From: Anseongella ginsenosidimutans
Lineage (GTDB): Bacteria > Bacteroidota > Bacteroidia > Sphingobacteriales > Sphingobacteriaceae
Direction of reading: 5' to 3'
Length of the DNA: 64,000 nt
Assembly: GCF_008033235.1 (NCBI RefSeq)
Contig: NZ_CP042432.1
Location: 186,001-250,000, forward strand
Shown here piece by piece: positions 28,304-64,000 of this stretch. The notes under the pieces were generated by a model. That model was given only the letters and a program-made list of their open reading frames with translations, ran no database searches and was not told the origin of the DNA. A program made the position numbers and the translations under genes. Within the stretch, counting starts at the first letter, position 1. Each line of letters begins with the position of its first letter.

Positions 28304-28363
28304 CGCTTTAAAAGCTAAGCGCGTTAAACCAGGAACTCGAAACTAAAAACCGGAAACTAAAAA

Positions 28364-28447
28364 CTGAAAACCGGAAACTAGAAACTACAAACTGAAAACC
28401 GGAAACTAGAAACTACAAACTGAAAACCGGAAACTAGAAACTACAAA
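28364..28447. repeat. 28-bp tandem repeat between mreD and mrdA
   Basis: Three perfect, contiguous copies of a 28-base unit beginning CTGAAAACCGGAAACTAG, at 28364, 28392 and 28420. Degenerate copies extend both ways (about 28336-28540). The unit is itself made of seven-base variants of the GAAACTA type, so the whole stretch is a layered low-complexity array. There are no unique spacers, so it is not a CRISPR array. Upstream (28185-28255) is a separate stretch with repeated CTGAAGCA-like words. Confidence 0.85.
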
Positions 28448-28548
28448 CTATAAACAGGAAACCGGAACTATAAACCGGACATCAGAAACCGGAAACTGAC
28501 AACCGGAAACTAGAAACTACAAACCACAAACTATAAACTGACTAAGGA

Positions 28549-52626: not shown

Positions 52627-53991
52627 ATGAAAAAGACCTTCAACATACTGATGGCAAGCCTTATAGCAGGCTTCATTATTACACTCGCCGGCGCGGGACG
52701 ATCATTCGCGCAACCGGGTGCAAGCATTTCATTTCAAACATTTTACGATGAACTTTCTCCGTACGGAAGCTGGATTGACGATCCGGATTACGGGTACGTC
52801 TGGATACCGGACGTGGAACCGGGCTTTCAGCCTTACGCTTCCAGAGGGCATTGGATGGCAACGTCTTATGGCAATACCTGGGTTTCCGATTACGAATGGG
52901 GATGGGCGCCTTTTCATTACGGCCGCTGGAAGTACGACGATTATTACGGCTGGATGTGGATCCCGGGATACGAATGGGGGCCTGCATGGGTCAGCTGGCG
53001 TTCCGGAGGCGACTATTACGGTTGGGCGCCCCTGCAACCGGGCATAAGTATTGGCGTTGCCGTGAACCTGCCTCTTTTTCACTGGACATTCGTCCCGAGG
53101 AGGTATATTACCAGCCATACTATTTATAACTATTACCTGCCCCGCAGAAGAGTGGTAAATGTTTATCATCATACCACGATCATTAACAATTATTATGTTC
53201 GCAATAACCGGCGGTATATCTGCGGCCCGCGGTACAGGGAAATTGAACGGGTGACCGGAAGAAGGGTACATGTGTACAATGTGAGCCATTCGGCCCGCCC
53301 GGGCAGGGTGTCGGTACGGGGAAGCTCGGTACAGATGTATCGTCCTTCGGTGGTAAAGTCCGGTTCAAATTCCAGGCCGCGCCCGTCCAGCGTATATGCC
53401 GCTGATCGCAGCAACCCCCGGCCGGGAAGATCAACCGCCGCTCCCTCCAACCGTCCCCGCTCGTCCGCAAGGACGGACGCAGATATAAGGGAATCCCGGT
53501 CATCCAGGCCGCAAGCTCGTCCGCAGGCCGCTGAGTCGCGCCCGCAGGCAAGGCCTCAGACACGGGAGTCGCGCCCGCAGGTCCGTCCTCAATCAGGCAA
53601 CTCCCCTGCCAGGGAAGCACGTCCACAGGTTCGCCCTCAAACAAGGGAATCACGACCGCAGGCCAGGCCCCAGGCAAGACCTCAATCAGGCAACTCCCCT
53701 GCCAGGGAAACACGTCCACAGGTTCGCCCTCAAACAAGGGAGTCACGACCGCAGGCCAGGCCCCAGGCAAGACCGCAGTCAGGCAACTCGCCTGCCAGGG
53801 AGTCACGGCCCCAGGCCAGGCCTCAAACAAGAGAAGCCCGGCCGCAGGCAAGACCGCAAACACGCGAGTCACGGCCGCAGGCTCGTCCTCAGACAAGAGA
53901 AGCCCGGCCCCAGGCCCGGCCGCAAAAGGTTGCTGAAAGGAAAGTTTCGGCACGTGAATCTTCTTCAAGGGGAAGCCGGCCAAGGAACTAA
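52627..53991 (+). CDS. DUF6600 (YXWGXW-rich) exported protein with basic repeat tail
   Basis: 454 residues. The signal peptide (about 1-28, ending SFAQ) is followed by a Trp/Tyr/Gly-rich domain (about 30-150: DELSPYGSWI, YGYVWIPDV, YEWGWAPFHYGRW, YGWMWIPGYEWGP, YYGWAPLQPG) typical of DUF6600. A Tyr/Arg-rich linker comes next, then a long tail (about 290-450) almost entirely R, P, Q, A, S and E in words such as RPQARPQTRES. The tail is strongly basic and probably disordered, perhaps binding wall or DNA polyanions. Function unknown. A perfect terminator follows. Confidence 0.88.
   Translation: MKKTFNILMASLIAGFIITLAGAGRSFAQPGASISFQTFYDELSPYGSWIDDPDYGYVWIPDVEPGFQPYASRGHWMATSYGNTWVSDYEWGWAPFHYGRWKYDDYYGWMWIPGYEWGPAWVSWRSGGDYYGWAPLQPGISIGVAVNLPLFHWTFVPRRYITSHTIYNYYLPRRRVVNVYHHTTIINNYYVRNNRRYICGPRYREIERVTGRRVHVYNVSHSARPGRVSVRGSSVQMYRPSVVKSGSNSRPRPSSVYAADRSNPRPGRSTAAPSNRPRSSARTDADIRESRSSRPQARPQAAESRPQARPQTRESRPQVRPQSGNSPAREARPQVRPQTRESRPQARPQARPQSGNSPARETRPQVRPQTRESRPQARPQARPQSGNSPARESRPQARPQTREARPQARPQTRESRPQARPQTREARPQARPQKVAERKVSARESSSRGSRPRN
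53587..53865 (+). repeat. 93-bp in-frame tandem repeat in the DUF6600 gene
   Basis: Units start at 53587, 53680 and 53773, each 93 bases (31 codons), the third diverging after about 50 bases. Each encodes PQSGNSPARE followed by Arg-Pro-Gln words. The period is a multiple of three, so copy-number change would keep the frame and only change tail length. Confidence 0.85.
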
Positions 53992-58342: not shown

Positions 58343-58417
58343 CCTCTCCCATTCCTACCAGCGTTTTAAGAGTCGCCTTCGGCTTCCGGAAACGTTGCGC
58401 GAGAGGATGATAATTCA

Positions 58418-58445
58418 TTAAGGGCGCAAAAAATTGCGCCCTTAA
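58418..58445. terminator. hairpin terminator between recA and the gene at 58505
   Basis: A perfect 12-base stem TTAAGGGCGCAA/TTGCGCCCTTAA with an AAAA loop sits between convergent genes. T tracts are weak, so it may act with another signal or mark the mRNA end. Confidence 0.7.
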
Positions 58446-58504
58446 TGATATAAAACAGGCAAAAGAATGAATAACCAGAGTCTGCCTGTCACAGGAAGGC
58501 GGGG

Positions 58505-58975
58505 TTAATTCCGCAGCAGGTTATTCAGGTTTTCCCAGAAAAAAAGCTGCAAGCCGTCTTTGCCTTGGAGCAGGATCATCCGCGCGTCCCGGTAATCCAT
58601 TACGAATACGTCCTTTGGCTTAAAGCTTCTGATCACCTTCCCAAAAATAATGTCTTTGGAAAGCTGCCCGTATAAGTCCTTTTCTATGGGCTTGATCTTA
58701 TCCAGGTGGTTTGCCATCAGGGAGTCAAGCGCCCTGACAGAGAACGCTCCATCGCCCCTCTGACCGATATTTCCATGAAGGATATTTTCAATCATCGCTT
58801 CCTGCATATCTTCCACTTTATCCTTGAACGGATAAATAAGGGTCTCCAGCTTGCGCACATCGCGGTTCTCCGCAGCTGCCCGGAGTTCAGTAAAAAAGCC
58901 CTTAAACCCCGGCGCCTGCCAGCCCTGGAAAAAAGCCGGAAAAGCCAGCAAAAAATAGATCATGATCGTTTGCAT
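58505..58975 (-). CDS. small exported protein of unknown function
   Basis: 156 residues with a short signal peptide (MIYFLLAFPAFFQGWQA). The mature part is helical, then mixed: FFTELRAAAENRDVRKLETLIYPF, later KPKDVFVMDYRDARMILLQGKDGLQLFFW, which looks like an SH3-like or NTF2-like strand pair. No family was recognised. It is the last gene of the collagen-like lipoprotein operon (six bases after the gene before), so it may be processed or act with those proteins. Confidence 0.75.
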   Translation of the reverse strand: MQTIMIYFLLAFPAFFQGWQAPGFKGFFTELRAAAENRDVRKLETLIYPFKDKVEDMQEAMIENILHGNIGQRGDGAFSVRALDSLMANHLDKIKPIEKDLYGQLSKDIIFGKVIRSFKPKDVFVMDYRDARMILLQGKDGLQLFFWENLNNLLRN

Positions 58976-58981
58976 AGAGTT

Positions 58982-59734
58982 TTATTCACTTATTCCCAGG
59001 AATCGCTTTGCTTCCTGGTAGTCTTCTAAATGAATGCCTCTCGCAGCCAGGCCGGAAATGTCCACACCGCCGGGGATCAGTACGTATTTAAATTTAGCGT
59101 CAGCAAGCGCGTGCGGAATGGTAAGCGCATCGCCTTTCGTCAGAAGAATTGAGATGACCGATAAATCGGGAAGGGTTGCACAATAAGCGTCCGCGTTGAG
59201 AATCGTTGTCTGCCGCGGGATCAATGAAACTTCGGGCGCGCCTATTGCTATCTCAATCCGGATATAAACTAGAACTATGCCCCCATTATTGAAGAATGCA
59301 TCTGTAAACTCAGGTACGTTAATGTGATGCACCTTGCGGTCGGGCGTATTTGTCCTGTTCCAGGTGGGATCAATCCAATCCGAATACATAATATTTGCCG
59401 TGCCCGGAGGGCCTTGCGGGCCGGTTGCTCCTCTGGGCCCCTGCGGGCCGGTTGCACCACGCGGCCCCTGCGGGCCGGTTTCGCCTTGCGGACCGGTTGC
59501 ACCGCGCGGTCCCTGCGGGCCGGTCTCTCCATTTGGTCCCTGTGCGCCGGCCGCACCACGCGGGCCTTGAGATCCGGCAGGGCCGGCAGGGCCCAAATCT
59601 CCCTGGTCTCCTTTTATTCCCTGTTCGCCTTGCGGCCCCGCGGGACCGGGAGGCCCTTCTTTTTCACAGGAACTTAATATCATCAGGCCGGATAAAGCGA
59701 ACGCGCCTGCAAGAATTTTTAAAGATCTGTACAT
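58982..59734 (-). CDS. collagen-like lipoprotein 1
   Basis: 250 residues. The signal peptide ends at the lipobox LSSC (C23). About 28 perfect Gly-X-Y triplets follow (27-111), rich in GPQ, GPR and GAT, interrupted nowhere. Next is a junction [14 protein letters not shown] (110-123) and a C-terminal domain that ends [18 protein letters not shown] then YQEA. The triplets should form a collagen triple helix, so a trimeric stalk on the outer membrane is likely. The C-terminal domain is shared with the two paralogues at 61051 and 61751. Function unknown; adhesion or matrix formation is a guess. Confidence 0.88.
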
Positions 59735-59745
59735 ATTGACTCCTT

Positions 59746-61026
59746 TTATTGTTTGATAAATTCCACTCTCCTGTTCTGCGCCCTACCCTCAGGGCCATCG
59801 TTAGGCGCAACAGGATCGGATTCTCCCTTGCCCCCGGTTTCCATTCTTTCGGGAAGAATTCCAAATTCCGATGCAAGGACGGCTTTTACCGAAGTCGCCC
59901 GCTCCTGCGATAGTTTAAGGTTGAGTTCTTCCGGGCCGTCGGCATCCGTATGCCCGATGATCTGCACCCTGACATCTGCATTCTCCTGCAATACACTGGC
60001 AATCTCTTTCAGTACGCCATAGGATTCAGGCTGCACCCTGGCGGAGTTCACATCAAAATGAATTCCGGTGGTAGTCCATCTGCCTTCGGTAATAAGTTTG
60101 CTGCGGGCATCTTCACCCGTTTCAGCTATACGGAGGTTAGCAATATAAAAGGACTCCTTGGGGGCGGGAATGATCTCGCCAGCCCGGAAATGAAAGTTAT
60201 TCCGTAGTGTTGCAGGTTCAAACGCACGCGGCAGATCAAAAAGTTTTTCATGATCCAGGTACAGCCGGATGCGCTGCTTGTTCACACTGATACTTACCCT
60301 TATTGGTTTTCCTGCTGCCTTATTGGTAAAGTATTCCTTATTCGTTTCCCGGCCGGAATACAGGCTGGTACTGTAACCTACTTTGTCCAGGAAATGATCG
60401 ATGCGGAAATAAAAAAGCTTCCCGCCCTTTAACCCTTCCTTCGCTGGATTAGCGCTTTCAGAGAAGCCAAAAGTAACCGGCGGGCGAGTGCTGCCCGAGG
60501 GATAGAAAAGGTCAAATTCAACCGTGAAATTTTCCGGAAGCGTCTTGCCCGTTTCAGGAAAACTGGTGGTATTATCCGGGACTTTCAGCCATTTTCCAGA
60601 TTGCCCGCCCAGGCTAACTACTTCTCCCGAACCGCTGGTATTCCAGCGCGCGGGGAAGTCACCCGTGTTATCAGCCGAAAAGTCATCATAAAACAGCAGG
60701 CTTTCCCCGGGAAGAAAGTCGAATTTCGAGTAAACAGCGAATTCTCCCGCCGCATTTACTGCCGCCTCCTTATCCTCACCAGCATTGGCCTGTCCTGCTC
60801 CGTCAGGCTGCCCTTCGTTCACTTTGTCTTCTCCGGCCTCCTTTCCGTTTCCTTCGGCCGCTTCTTCTACCTTGTCAAGGCCTTTATCCACCGCCTCGCC
60901 GGTTTTCCGGTCGATCCGTTCTTCTACTTTGCGTTTTACCTTTTTTCCCAGCCGTTCGAGGATCTGGGCCTCGGCAATACTACCGCCTGCTATCGCGAAC
61001 AGTAGTGTAAACAGGAAATATTTCAT
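59746..61026 (-). CDS. OmpA family protein with central lectin-like domain
   Basis: 426 residues. Signal peptide (ends AEAQ), then a charged helical segment ([32 protein letters not shown], about 25-56) and an acidic low-complexity linker. A central beta domain (about 95-300, [25 protein letters not shown]) resembles concanavalin-like laminin-G folds. The C-terminal OmpA peptidoglycan-binding domain (about 315-426) carries [20 protein letters not shown] and NRRVEFIK. It could anchor the neighbouring collagen-like lipoproteins to the wall. It sits between two of them in the operon with gaps of 11 and 24 bases. Confidence 0.9.
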
Positions 61027-61050
61027 GATCTCAGTTTTAATCTTCTTCTA

Positions 61051-61734
61051 TCAATGCAGATTTTCAAGAGCCTGAACTACTTCATCGTAATTGTTCAAGT
61101 CTACGCCGCTTCTTTCCAGTGCGGAAATATCCACCCCGCCGGGGATAAGTACATATCGAAACCTGGTAACGGCCGCCCCTGCTTCGTTGCTTGTCAGGGG
61201 ACCGTCAAAAGATCGCACGTTAATATATATCCCGTTTCCGTACACGTAGGATTCGTAAATTCTGTCAACGCTTCCGTCAACTTTATAAAAAGTTTGGGGC
61301 AAAAGATAATCATAGCGGGTAGAAGAAGTCGGCTGGCGACGATAATATACCAGAACAACGCCCTTGCTTAAAAAATCAGTAGTGATCGTCGATTCTGTTA
61401 CGCGTAATTGTTTAAAATCCGGCTCGTCCGTACTCCATACAGGTGCGAACCAGTCGGAATACATGACGTTCGCCGTGCCGGGGTCCCCTTTAGGACCCGT
61501 TGCGCCGCGGGGACCTGTTGCACCCGTTGCGCCGCGGGGGCCGGCGGCCCCGGTTTCACCCCTGGGACCAGTGTCTCCAGGATCGCCCTTATCACCCTTA
61601 TCGCCTTTTGCGCCTGATGCCCCCTGTTCGCCCTGCGGCCCGCTTGGGCCGGCAGGCCCTTCCTTTTCACAGGATGTGAAGGCGAATAAAAGGGACAAGG
61701 TGAGCATTATCGTAGTTAATGTATGGTGTTTCAT
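61051..61734 (-). CDS. collagen-like lipoprotein 2
   Basis: 227 residues, paralogue of the proteins at 58982 and 61751. Lipobox at FTSC (C22), [17 protein letters not shown] start, then about 20 Gly-X-Y triplets (26-86) with GDKGDKGD and GPRGATG words. The junction [16 protein letters not shown] follows, and a C-terminal domain ending [18 protein letters not shown]. Trimerisation is expected from the triplets. The stalk is shorter than in copy 1, as if triplets expand and contract. Function unknown. Confidence 0.88.
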
Positions 61735-61750
61735 TTCTGTTGATTAATCG

Positions 61751-62482
61751 CTAATTCTTTAGATCCAGCAGCTGTGCCGCCTCTGCGTAGCTGATCCTGC
61801 TCCAGTCAATGTCCGTCGCCAGCCTGCCTGAAACCTCAACGCCCGCTGGTATCAGCACATAGCGAAACTCGTTCCCCCTGAACCCTGCATAGTCGTACTC
61901 TGTGAGGGCTGTGCCATCCGTACTGACAATCCGGATAAGAATGGAATTGATGGTACTTACCCCGAAAGAACCTCCGGACCAGGTATAGTCGACATTGGAA
62001 TAGGTATAAGGCAGCATATTATGCTGTCCGTTCCCGAAATTTTTGCCGTAAAGCACCAGCAGGCCGCCGGAAGACAGGAATCCTGCGATATGCTCCGCAT
62101 TTACAAGATCCAGTACATTGGCGGGGAATGTATACTTCATTGTCTTGTGTGTAGGCGTATTAGGTGTTGAATTAATTTCATATTCAATCCATCCCGAGGA
62201 TACTACATTCGCCGTGCCGGGGTCACCTTTATCCCCTTTAGGGCCGGTTGCCCCGCGGGGCCCGGTCGCACCTGTTGCTCCGGTGGCACCACGGGGACCG
62301 GTAGCGCCGGTCTCTCCCCTGGGGCCGGTAGCCCCCGGATCCCCTTTATCGCCTTTCGGACCGGCTGCCCCTTGTTCTCCCTGGGGGCCGCTGGGGCCGG
62401 CAGGCCCTTCCTTTTCACAGGCGGTGAATGCAACTGCCAGCAAAACAGCCAGCAGTATGCCGGTAAGTCTAATTTGTTTCAT
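61751..62482 (-). CDS. collagen-like lipoprotein 3
   Basis: 243 residues. Lipobox at FTAC (C22), the same [17 protein letters not shown] entry as copy 2, about 21 Gly-X-Y triplets (26-89), the diverged junction [13 protein letters not shown], and a C-terminal domain ending [18 protein letters not shown]. It is the most divergent of the three after the stalk: the junction lacks the YSDW of the other two and the middle of the domain is different. It lies directly upstream of copy 2 (16 bases). Confidence 0.88.
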
Positions 62483-62516
62483 ATTCGTACAACTTTATTT
62501 ATGATCTGTCAATCCG

Positions 62517-63218
62517 TTAAAATTTTTCTGTCAATACCAGGCTGCCGGACAGTTCACCGCTTTCATCATAACTTTCACCCTGGACCATACCGGTGCCTTC
62601 GGCATACCACTGTATGGTTTTCGTGCTGAAATTCATCGGCTTGTCCATTACTTTCATTTCCATATTCATTTTTCCTTCGATCTTCAGGCAACTGAAGGTG
62701 CCGGCCGGTACAGTAAGGGATTCCCGGCTAATGACCTTTTTGCCGGTAAACGTCATTTTCAGGGTGGTAAAAACCGTTCCTTCCATTTTCATGGTCATGG
62801 TAAGGCTGGCGTCGGGCAATTCATCACCTACCTGAAGGCTGGCGGGCATCACCAGGTCATCACTCTCGACTTCGGTTTCCATTCCTTCCATGGCCGAAGC
62901 TTGCGCAGGATAGTAAAGGGCTCTTGTGTCGATATACATTTTATCATCATCGCATTCCATCGTATATTCCACACTAGTGCCCTCGCCTGTCGCATTATCG
63001 CGGATATCTCGTTTCACAGTATAAATTACCCGCTCTCCGCTGCGGGTTATATCCAGCACGGTAAAGCGGATAGAACCGTTGGCTTCTCCTCCGGGATCTC
63101 TCGTTTCCAGCTGAAAGCCTTCACCAACGGCATAAGGAAACCATTGCTCACAGGCGATTTGTGCGCCGGCAACCTGGTTCAGGAAAAGGAGGGATAACAG
63201 GAAGTATTTCATGATCAA
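62517..63218 (-). CDS. TapB/DUF3108-like exported protein
   Basis: 233 residues with a signal peptide (ends VAGAQ). It consists of beta strands in the pattern of the TapB/DUF3108 group: WFPYAVGEGFQLETRD, SIRFTVLDITRSGERVIYTVKRD, ESLTVPAGTFSCLKIEGKMNMEMKV and IQWYAEGTGMVQGESYDESGEL. This strand order is typical of periplasmic lipid-binding-like or YcfL/LolA-like half barrels. Function unknown. It follows the lipoprotein at 63219 with no gap, so it is co-transcribed with the collagen-like genes. Confidence 0.75.
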   Translation of the reverse strand: MIMKYFLLSLLFLNQVAGAQIACEQWFPYAVGEGFQLETRDPGGEANGSIRFTVLDITRSGERVIYTVKRDIRDNATGEGTSVEYTMECDDDKMYIDTRALYYPAQASAMEGMETEVESDDLVMPASLQVGDELPDASLTMTMKMEGTVFTTLKMTFTGKKVISRESLTVPAGTFSCLKIEGKMNMEMKVMDKPMNFSTKTIQWYAEGTGMVQGESYDESGELSGSLVLTEKF

Positions 63219-64000
63219 TTAGCAAGAAGGGTCATCTGACTGCACGATCAGCAAGAGTTCGCCTTCCGTGCCTATGCTGGCGCTGGTGATCTCGCCGCTT
63301 ACACCAAGCGACTCCAGGTGATCGTTAAACAGCCCTTCTATAATACCCCGGTAGGAATTAAAATGGTTCACCACCTGTTCTTCAATGGCCTCTCTCATCT
63401 GGCTTTCCCTGTCTGCTGCAAAAAGATCGCAGGCAAAGGCGCAGGCATTATCTACGCAGGGCCCGGTTTCCTCATAGGTGGAACTCAGTTCGGCCGCGAT
63501 GTCCGAGATCGTTAACCTTCCTCCTGCTGCTCCCACGCTGAGCCATACCTCTATTTTCATATCATTCAGGTCGATCCTGGGATCGCCGCATATGCAGGCA
63601 ATATTATCCACGCAGTTCCCGACGATCTCAGTCCCCCCTTCTTCAAAGAAAATGGTAATAAGGCCTTTTCGGGACCGCGCATCCGGCTCAAAACTGGTGG
63701 AATTTACATCATTAATGTATATCGAATAAGGGTTCTGCCTTTGCAGCGGAATATCAAAGGCAATGTCAAGATCAAGAGCGTCCACCCTCAGGTAGCTGTC
63801 ATCCGGTTTATAGAAGGCGGAAACGTCCTCTGCGCTGAATTCATGATCATTAGGGGTATAATTATTAAGGCGAAGAGAAACACCGTCAAAGGTGGAACTC
63901 AGGGCCCCTAGCCACTCCTCCTTCTCCAGGGTCTGTGATTCAGTACGCACGCCGTTTTCGCAGCAGCCGGAAACCAGCAGGACCGATAAGCCCAGCCATA
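63219..64000 (-). CDS. lipoprotein of unknown function, 5' end missing
   Basis: The minus-strand frame runs off the window edge. The visible part begins with the end of a signal peptide, LLVSGCCENG, whose lipobox cysteine shows it is a lipoprotein; a GTG at 63950 is inside the mature protein and is not the start. About 260 residues are visible: strands such as FDGVSLRLNNYTPNDHEF and YLRVDALDLDIAFDIPLQ, and a cysteine-rich stretch (CVDNIACICGD, CVDNACAFACD) suggesting disulfides. No family was recognised. It precedes the TapB-like gene without a gap. Confidence 0.75.
   Translation of the reverse strand, partial: WLGLSVLLVSGCCENGVRTESQTLEKEEWLGALSSTFDGVSLRLNNYTPNDHEFSAEDVSAFYKPDDSYLRVDALDLDIAFDIPLQRQNPYSIYINDVNSTSFEPDARSRKGLITIFFEEGGTEIVGNCVDNIACICGDPRIDLNDMKIEVWLSVGAAGGRLTISDIAAELSSTYEETGPCVDNACAFACDLFAADRESQMREAIEEQVVNHFNSYRGIIEGLFNDHLESLGVSGEITSASIGTEGELLLIVQSDDPSC

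Follow-up and report, generated by a model that had tools for sequence, protein, structure and literature searches.

Collagen-like lipoproteins sharing a widespread C-terminal domain in an Anseongella operon with an OmpA-type protein

The operon and its products

The window analysed here, C1:186001-250000 of the complete 4.32-Mb genome of an Anseongella species (Sphingobacteriaceae), is a stretch of 64,000 nucleotides in which seven minus-strand genes form an operon, separated by intergenic gaps of 6, 34, 16, 24, 11 and 6 bp in order. Three of these genes encode lipoproteins, P0001, P0002 and P0003, in which a collagen-like stalk leads to a C-terminal domain (CTD), and a further gene encodes an OmpA-type protein, P0004. 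All seven products bear export-signal-like N-termini as read by eye, comprising four lipoboxes, carried by the product of the first gene and the three collagen proteins, and three signal-peptide-I-like sequences. The features of the operon, in positions of the window, are as follows.

63219..64043, minus strand: first gene, a 274-amino-acid lipoprotein with no family assigned, lipobox LLVSGC; 43 bp of it lie beyond the window (5220-6044 of L009, the extract holding the operon start)
62517..63212, minus strand: DUF3108_like secreted protein, 231 amino acids (PF21347, E=2e-38)
61751..62482, minus strand: collagen-like lipoprotein 1 (P0001), 243 amino acids, lipobox TAC (PF01391, E=3e-10)
62210..62407, minus strand: Gly-X-Y stalk of P0001, 22 triplets counting GTA
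61754..62206, minus strand: CTD of P0001 (profile A6, E=1e-18)
61051..61734, minus strand: collagen-like lipoprotein 2 (P0002), 227 amino acids, lipobox TSC (PF01391, E=6e-10)
61471..61659, minus strand: Gly-X-Y stalk of P0002, 21 triplets counting GTA
61054..61467, minus strand: CTD of P0002 (profile E=1e-28; AlphaFold2 pLDDT 90.8, pTM 0.86)
59746..61026, minus strand: P0004, 426 amino acids, with signal peptide, charged helical spacer, ConA-like middle and OmpA domain (PF00691, E=5e-22)
60088..60732, minus strand: putative lectin-like (ConA-type) middle domain of P0004 (weak profile matches)
59770..60057, minus strand: OmpA domain of P0004, with HTD...ERA motif
58982..59734, minus strand: collagen-like lipoprotein 3 (P0003), 250 amino acids, lipobox SSC (PF01391, E=1e-15)
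59396..59656, minus strand: Gly-X-Y stalk of P0003, 29 triplets counting GTA
58985..59392, minus strand: CTD of P0003 (profile A6, E=2e-27)
58505..58975, minus strand: last gene (P0006), an exported protein of 156 amino acids with no family
58415..58448, no strand: perfect 15-bp hairpin, probable bidirectional terminator of the operon and recA (fold -24.6/-25.5 kcal/mol)

Collagen stalks and lipid anchors

The Gly-X-Y runs of P0001, P0002 and P0003 are uninterrupted and comprise 21, 20 and 28 triplets, respectively, when the final GTA is excluded. Among 2000 composition shuffles per protein the longest run was 7-10 triplets, none equalling the native length, and all three proteins pass the cut-off of the Pfam collagen family (PF01391; 39-57 bits versus 27.2). 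The lipobox cysteines are each preceded by a hydrophobic stretch, again as read by eye, and are followed by a common CEKEGP entry (CEKEGPP in P0003), while a PGTAN junction common to the three proteins joins stalk and CTD. The C-terminal end of P0001 reads [12 protein letters not shown] instead of PGGVDIS, and tandem DNA repeats with units of 27 and 72 bp lie at 59411-59550 within the stalk of P0003. The initial annotation of this DNA, which had described seven closely spaced genes for exported proteins (gaps of 34 bases or less) and, among them, three lipoproteins with unbroken stalks of about 28, 20 and 21 triplets, the same CEKEGP entry and the same junction, is thus borne out by the gap lengths, the inspected N-termini, the triplet counts and the shuffles.

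The known surface-export signal of Bacteroidota lipoproteins is C-X-K-(D/E)2 or of the S-D-D type (PMC5080379). The C-E-K-E-G start of the three collagen lipoproteins presents Lys at +3 and Glu at +4, but Gly at +5. Across CTD homologues, Lys occupies +3 in 47 of 89 and Asp or Glu occupies +4 in 38 of 89, residues that by sequence resemble the C-X-K-(D/E)2 signal.

Two further forms of collagen-like sequence were encountered. At C1:158 kb (L011 901-3723), the same genome encodes a 940-amino-acid lipoprotein with a short collagen-like run and no sign of the CTD, and at four loci (L059, L061, L063 and L107) the stalk is interrupted between collagen runs by repeats, each roughly 45 residues long, with the pattern ILSGT..P....G..GDFY.N.....YGPKT..GWG.P..LKG.

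A widespread C-terminal domain

With the CTD of P0002, those of P0001 and P0003 share 29% and 34% identity, respectively, and one profile recovers all three with E-values of 1e-18 to 1e-28, values that express consistency with the family, as the profile was built with the three operon CTDs included. By both comparisons the three domains are homologous members of one family, in keeping with the relatedness that the initial annotation had proposed. The CTD is not special to the Anseongella operon but common across Bacteroidota: it is present in 140 of 251 sampled genomes of the family Sphingobacteriaceae and in 93 of 297 genomes of the phylum (42 of 141 genera), and GTDB genomes yielded 148 confirmed CTD stretches, of which the best 80 were read as loci. 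These belong to Sphingobacteriaceae, Chitinophagaceae, Cytophagales, Flavobacteriaceae and Balneolaceae, along with one Gemmatimonas metagenome-assembled genome (MAG).

The usual architecture is a single gene encoding lipobox, collagen stalk and CTD, with tandem or stalkless forms at times; more than one CTD open reading frame occurs at 17 of the 80 loci, and a stalkless CTD protein is encoded in the Anseongella genome itself at C1:428532. In most of about 90 homologues the Gly-X-Y pattern is unbroken from near the Cys to a junction of the (P)GTAN-(I/V/M)YSDW type. Stalk length varies from 2 to 54 triplets (median 11), and the CTD is conserved across the homologues despite this variation. An extreme of tandem arrangement is seen in another member of the Sphingobacteriaceae (G123; L175 5188-8565), where five collagen-CTD lipoprotein genes of 16 triplets each stand in direct tandem, two with altered C-termini.

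None of 57 diverse CTD members matched a Pfam family at E<=0.01, PF07603 (DUF1566) included, the family profile found no match among PDB sequences, and NCBIfam and PHROGs each returned one match at chance level. The AlphaFold2 model of the P0002 CTD, made with 57 sequences, predicts with confidence a compact beta-sandwich of eight strands and three helices (predicted local distance difference test, pLDDT, 90.8; predicted template-modelling score, pTM, 0.86). A Foldseek search of this model against the PDB gave nothing at E<=0.001, C1q/TNF structures included; the best E-value was 0.03, with TM-scores to the query of at most 0.39 among the matches listed. Given the lack of a Pfam, PDB-sequence or PDB-fold match, the head is an undescribed domain within the scope of the searched libraries. 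A viral origin of the CTD was also considered and set aside: scanning IMG/VR with a pattern turned up no relative that could be confirmed, and a fold search of BFVD gave one borderline match (TM-score 0.44).

The OmpA-type protein and its link to CTD genes

The OmpA domain of P0004 scores well above the cut-off of PF00691 (78.5 bits versus 27.2) and carries an HTD...ERA motif, which we take to be its peptidoglycan contacts. The protein has a type-I-like signal and a helical, charged spacer, and no barrel. Because of this signal and the absence of a barrel, P0004 is probably a periplasmic peptidoglycan binder. The initial annotation had also given it a lectin-like middle domain: the OmpA assignment stands, whereas the lectin-like part draws on weak and mostly insignificant matches, the best being to galectin, laminin G, thrombospondin-1 and 3-keto-disaccharide hydrolase, all ConA-like folds (E-values of 0.0007-0.02 for one or two members, with galectins near E=1 by profile). 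From these matches the middle domain is putatively ConA-like, of lectin type; folded as a single sequence with no homologues, P0004 gave an unusable model (pLDDT 38).

The cluster recurs in the second Anseongella genome (G001:C51), in the order 129-amino-acid protein, collagen, two AraC genes (inverted), collagen, first-gene ortholog, collagen, OmpA protein and last-gene ortholog, the DUF3108_like gene being missing. Relatives do, therefore, keep three collagen genes together with the first, OmpA and last genes, as the initial annotation would have it. Orthologs between the two genomes are about 50-76% identical (64% for P0001 and G001:C51:4879; 54% for P0002 and its counterpart G001:C51:9140), so that the shared order does not merely reflect recent identity. 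Relatives of the first gene are confined to these two genomes among the 251 searched.

Beyond Anseongella, genera g4 (Parapedobacter), g13 and g16 (Sphingobacterium) also place a collagen gene next to one of OmpA type. Five of the 48 OmpA-bearing genomes of the family (G000, G001, G100, G182 and G192) have a CTD gene no more than 3 kb from the OmpA-type gene, a lower bound drawn from the CTD matches listed in a subset of genomes. About 0.13 such loci would be expected by chance, on the assumption of 1.5 CTD genes per 4.7 Mb and among genomes that are related to one another (Poisson P 3e-7 for five, and 4e-4 for at least three with the window genome and its sister left out). A sixth such neighbourhood, in G239, was found on reading the locus. 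The 43 OmpA-bearing genomes beyond the five, G239 among them, show no listed CTD gene at that distance, and near the 80 named CTD loci there is no close relative of P0004 and no first, last or DUF3108 gene, with one remote OmpA-domain match. By gene neighbourhood, then, the OmpA-CTD link is real but occasional, since five of 48 stands against about 0.13 expected, yet none of the 80 named loci has a P0004 relative. The OmpA-CTD grouping in the tree is weak (93/35) and was not used as proof of joint inheritance.

The last gene may have a different history. It is directly adjacent to the gene for the 129-amino-acid protein in two other genera (G004:C94 and G269:C12), a related AraC gene lying alongside in G269:C12, and neither pair has a collagen gene or P0004-type OmpA gene beside it, while in Anseongella the collagen/OmpA cassette lies between the two. 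Judged by gene order, the simplest reading is that the cassette was inserted into an older pair and that the last gene belongs to another module. The dedicated array with a wall anchor that the initial annotation saw here was hence overstated, although its recurrent OmpA neighbourhood holds. P0004 is at most a putative anchor of the stalks, and a periplasmic location is more likely.

In the Anseongella genome, the 129-amino-acid gene lies on the same strand, 105 bp upstream of the first gene (L009 6150-6539), and two AraC-type regulator genes diverge from it, the one scanned carrying HTH_18 and DUF6597. At the other end, recA is convergent with the operon beyond the hairpin. An Rfam search of the window gave no match, and the Bacteroidota promoter pattern was unmatched in L009.

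Decayed copies of collagen genes were also seen. At C1:83.1-84.2 kb (L010 5118-6202) lie two adjacent decayed collagen-lipoprotein paralogs, one frameshifted in the CTD and the other with its lipobox frame disrupted and its CTD cut short, and duplicate decay recurs in Parapedobacter soli (L057 7746-9320 / L065), where an intact collagen-CTD gene stands beside a copy broken by a frame change.

Association with SusCD-type operons

Most CTD genes (71 of 94) have no same-strand neighbour within 60 bp. At nine Chitinophagaceae-type loci (Niastella, Pinibacter, Terrimonas, Chitinophaga and related MAGs), the collagen gene stands beside, or closes, a SusC-SusD-Peptidase_Mx1-DUF4302 operon, mostly as its last gene; Pfam searches of examples confirmed Peptidase_Mx1, DUF4302 and SusD, and SusC was assigned from position, size and look. 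No SusC or SusD gene is among the genes of the Anseongella operon. A DUF4302 gene of B. thetaiotaomicron varies with iron supply (PMC10434189). In seven Chitinophagaceae-type genomes (L114, L118, L119, L121, L122, L127 and L133), a collagen-CTD gene lies near, and precedes, a gene for a conserved 460-amino-acid secreted protein that by appearance is of the PhoD phosphatase type.

A proposed stalked lipoprotein and its alternatives

P0001-P0003 are interpreted, with a probability of about 0.6, as paralogous, trimeric, stalked outer-membrane lipoproteins in which the CTD serves for trimerisation and as a ligand-binding head, probably exposed at the surface. Export and lipobox motifs, Gly-X-Y periodicity, homologous CTDs, operon layout and the recurrent OmpA neighbourhood are read from the sequence; we infer trimerisation, surface exposure, ligand binding and any physical contact with the OmpA protein. 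Each chain would be exported, acylated at the cysteine of its lipobox and anchored in the outer membrane, where the C-terminal beta-sandwiches would associate as a trimer and nucleate a collagen triple helix. This predicted helix, some 17-25 nm if fully extended, would keep the three heads off the membrane, most likely at the cell surface, and the head could there bind an extracellular ligand, be it a polymer, a nutrient carrier or a neighbouring surface, which would make these accessory lipoproteins for capture or adhesion. The collagen lipoproteins would be co-produced with the periplasmic, peptidoglycan-binding and probably ConA-like OmpA protein, which may reinforce the envelope beneath the stalks or, in the sole case that these point inward, come into contact with them.

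Surface exposure is favoured because of the variable stalk length, the SusCD context and the partial export signal, the nine SusCD-linked loci pointing to the surface, where the products of such operons are expected. A tentative extension of this interpretation is that the CTD constitutes an undescribed fold family, in about one third of Bacteroidota genomes, that nucleates lipid-anchored collagen trimers on the outer membrane and has been co-opted on several occasions as a head group, by uptake operons of SusCD type as well as by a peptidoglycan-linked OmpA/ConA module.

Several observations weigh against the stalked surface lipoprotein. Stalkless CTD proteins suggest that the domain does not serve solely for collagen trimerisation; the modelled fold has no likeness in the PDB close enough to hint at a ligand; the OmpA partner probably faces the periplasm, judging from its type of signal; and the export signal is incomplete, with one acidic residue after the Lys and Gly at +5.

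The last two points would suit an unlikely alternative, in which the lipoproteins sit on the outer membrane's inner leaflet and extend their stalks to the peptidoglycan, to be met there by either the CTD or the OmpA protein's ConA-like domain, as an envelope spacer. The operon stalks, at 20-28 triplets, would measure about 17-24 nm, close to the width of the periplasm, and a peptidoglycan-binding OmpA protein with type-I-like signal, helical spacer and no barrel is encoded in the operon and adjoins CTD genes in other genera. However, stalks that range across the family from none to 54 triplets are ill-suited to a ruler, OmpA neighbours are absent for most CTD genes, and the SusCD-linked copies point to the surface. 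It is quite unlikely, in turn, that those copies reveal the primary role of the CTD as a substrate-binding head for TonB-dependent systems, the window operon being a variant that lost or never had its transporter: the nine SusC-SusD-Peptidase_Mx1-DUF4302-collagen loci and the iron-responsive DUF4302 gene (PMC10434189) speak for such an uptake accessory, yet the linkage is seen in Chitinophagaceae-type genomes alone, a close same-strand neighbour is lacking for 71 of the 94 CTD genes, and the Anseongella cluster is devoid of SusCD. A chance grouping of genes for exported proteins under a single promoter, the collagen copies arising by duplication and decaying without selection, is improbable, for although decayed paralogs occur at C1:83.1-84.2 kb and a broken copy in Parapedobacter soli, the cassette sits between genes adjacent elsewhere and the second Anseongella cluster lacks the DUF3108 gene, the cluster is kept in two species whose proteins are just ~50-76% identical, and OmpA-CTD adjacency in further genera is far above chance.

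Comparison with known collagen-stalk proteins

Work on collagen-stalk proteins of bacteria has centred on pathogens and spores. Bacillus BclA and the vertebrate C1q/TNF-type proteins are trimers in which a collagen stalk bears a C-terminal beta-sandwich head; the CTD described here has no significant fold match or Pfam match to these. The streptococcal surface proteins Scl1 and Scl2 (NF038330, NF038329) likewise have a Gly-X-Y stalk, but their topology is opposite, with an N-terminal head and an LPXTG anchor, and their models match the stalk only, the operon collagen proteins missing the full-length cut-offs (37-67 bits versus 325-400). Lcl of Legionella is likewise exported, its collagen-like stalk leading into a C-terminal head of non-collagen sequence; it differs as a peripheral membrane protein, in contrast to the lipobox proteins here, and CTD members have no PF07603 or PDB sequence match. 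The Lcl CTD (DUF1566, PF07603) is a trimer that binds sulphated glycans, and Lcl homologues extend into Bacteroidota (PMC11162425); they were all that turned up in the literature on collagen-like lipoproteins of this phylum. Since proteins with a stalk and a globular C-terminal head are established surface binders elsewhere, as typified by Lcl (PMC11162425), a surface-binder role is proposed for the collagen-CTD lipoproteins, which are of the same general kind as Lcl, Scl and BclA/C1q, with the addition of a lipid anchor and an undescribed head.

P0004 shares a C-terminal OmpA domain with peptidoglycan anchors of the YiaD/PA1041 type, but misses their full-length cut-offs and has the charged helix and ConA-like middle domain as extras. 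Nine SusC/SusD loci with Peptidase_Mx1 and DUF4302 carry a collagen-CTD lipoprotein, whereas the Anseongella operon is without SusCD. A lipid-anchored version of the collagen stalk with a common, unannotated head that is modelled with confidence would give many 'collagen-like' hypothetical proteins of a major environmental and gut phylum a testable architecture; the CTD would be a new natural trimerisation module for collagen, and the recurrent operon contexts supply concrete candidate partners.

Other features of the window

Two repeats lie elsewhere in the window. A degenerate array of a 7-bp unit, AAACTAG, in about 30 copies, occupies 28326-28539, and at 52627-53991 an exported 454-amino-acid protein bears a long RPQARPQ/ESRPQARPQ repeat tail arising from tandem repeats of 33, 66 and 93 bp.

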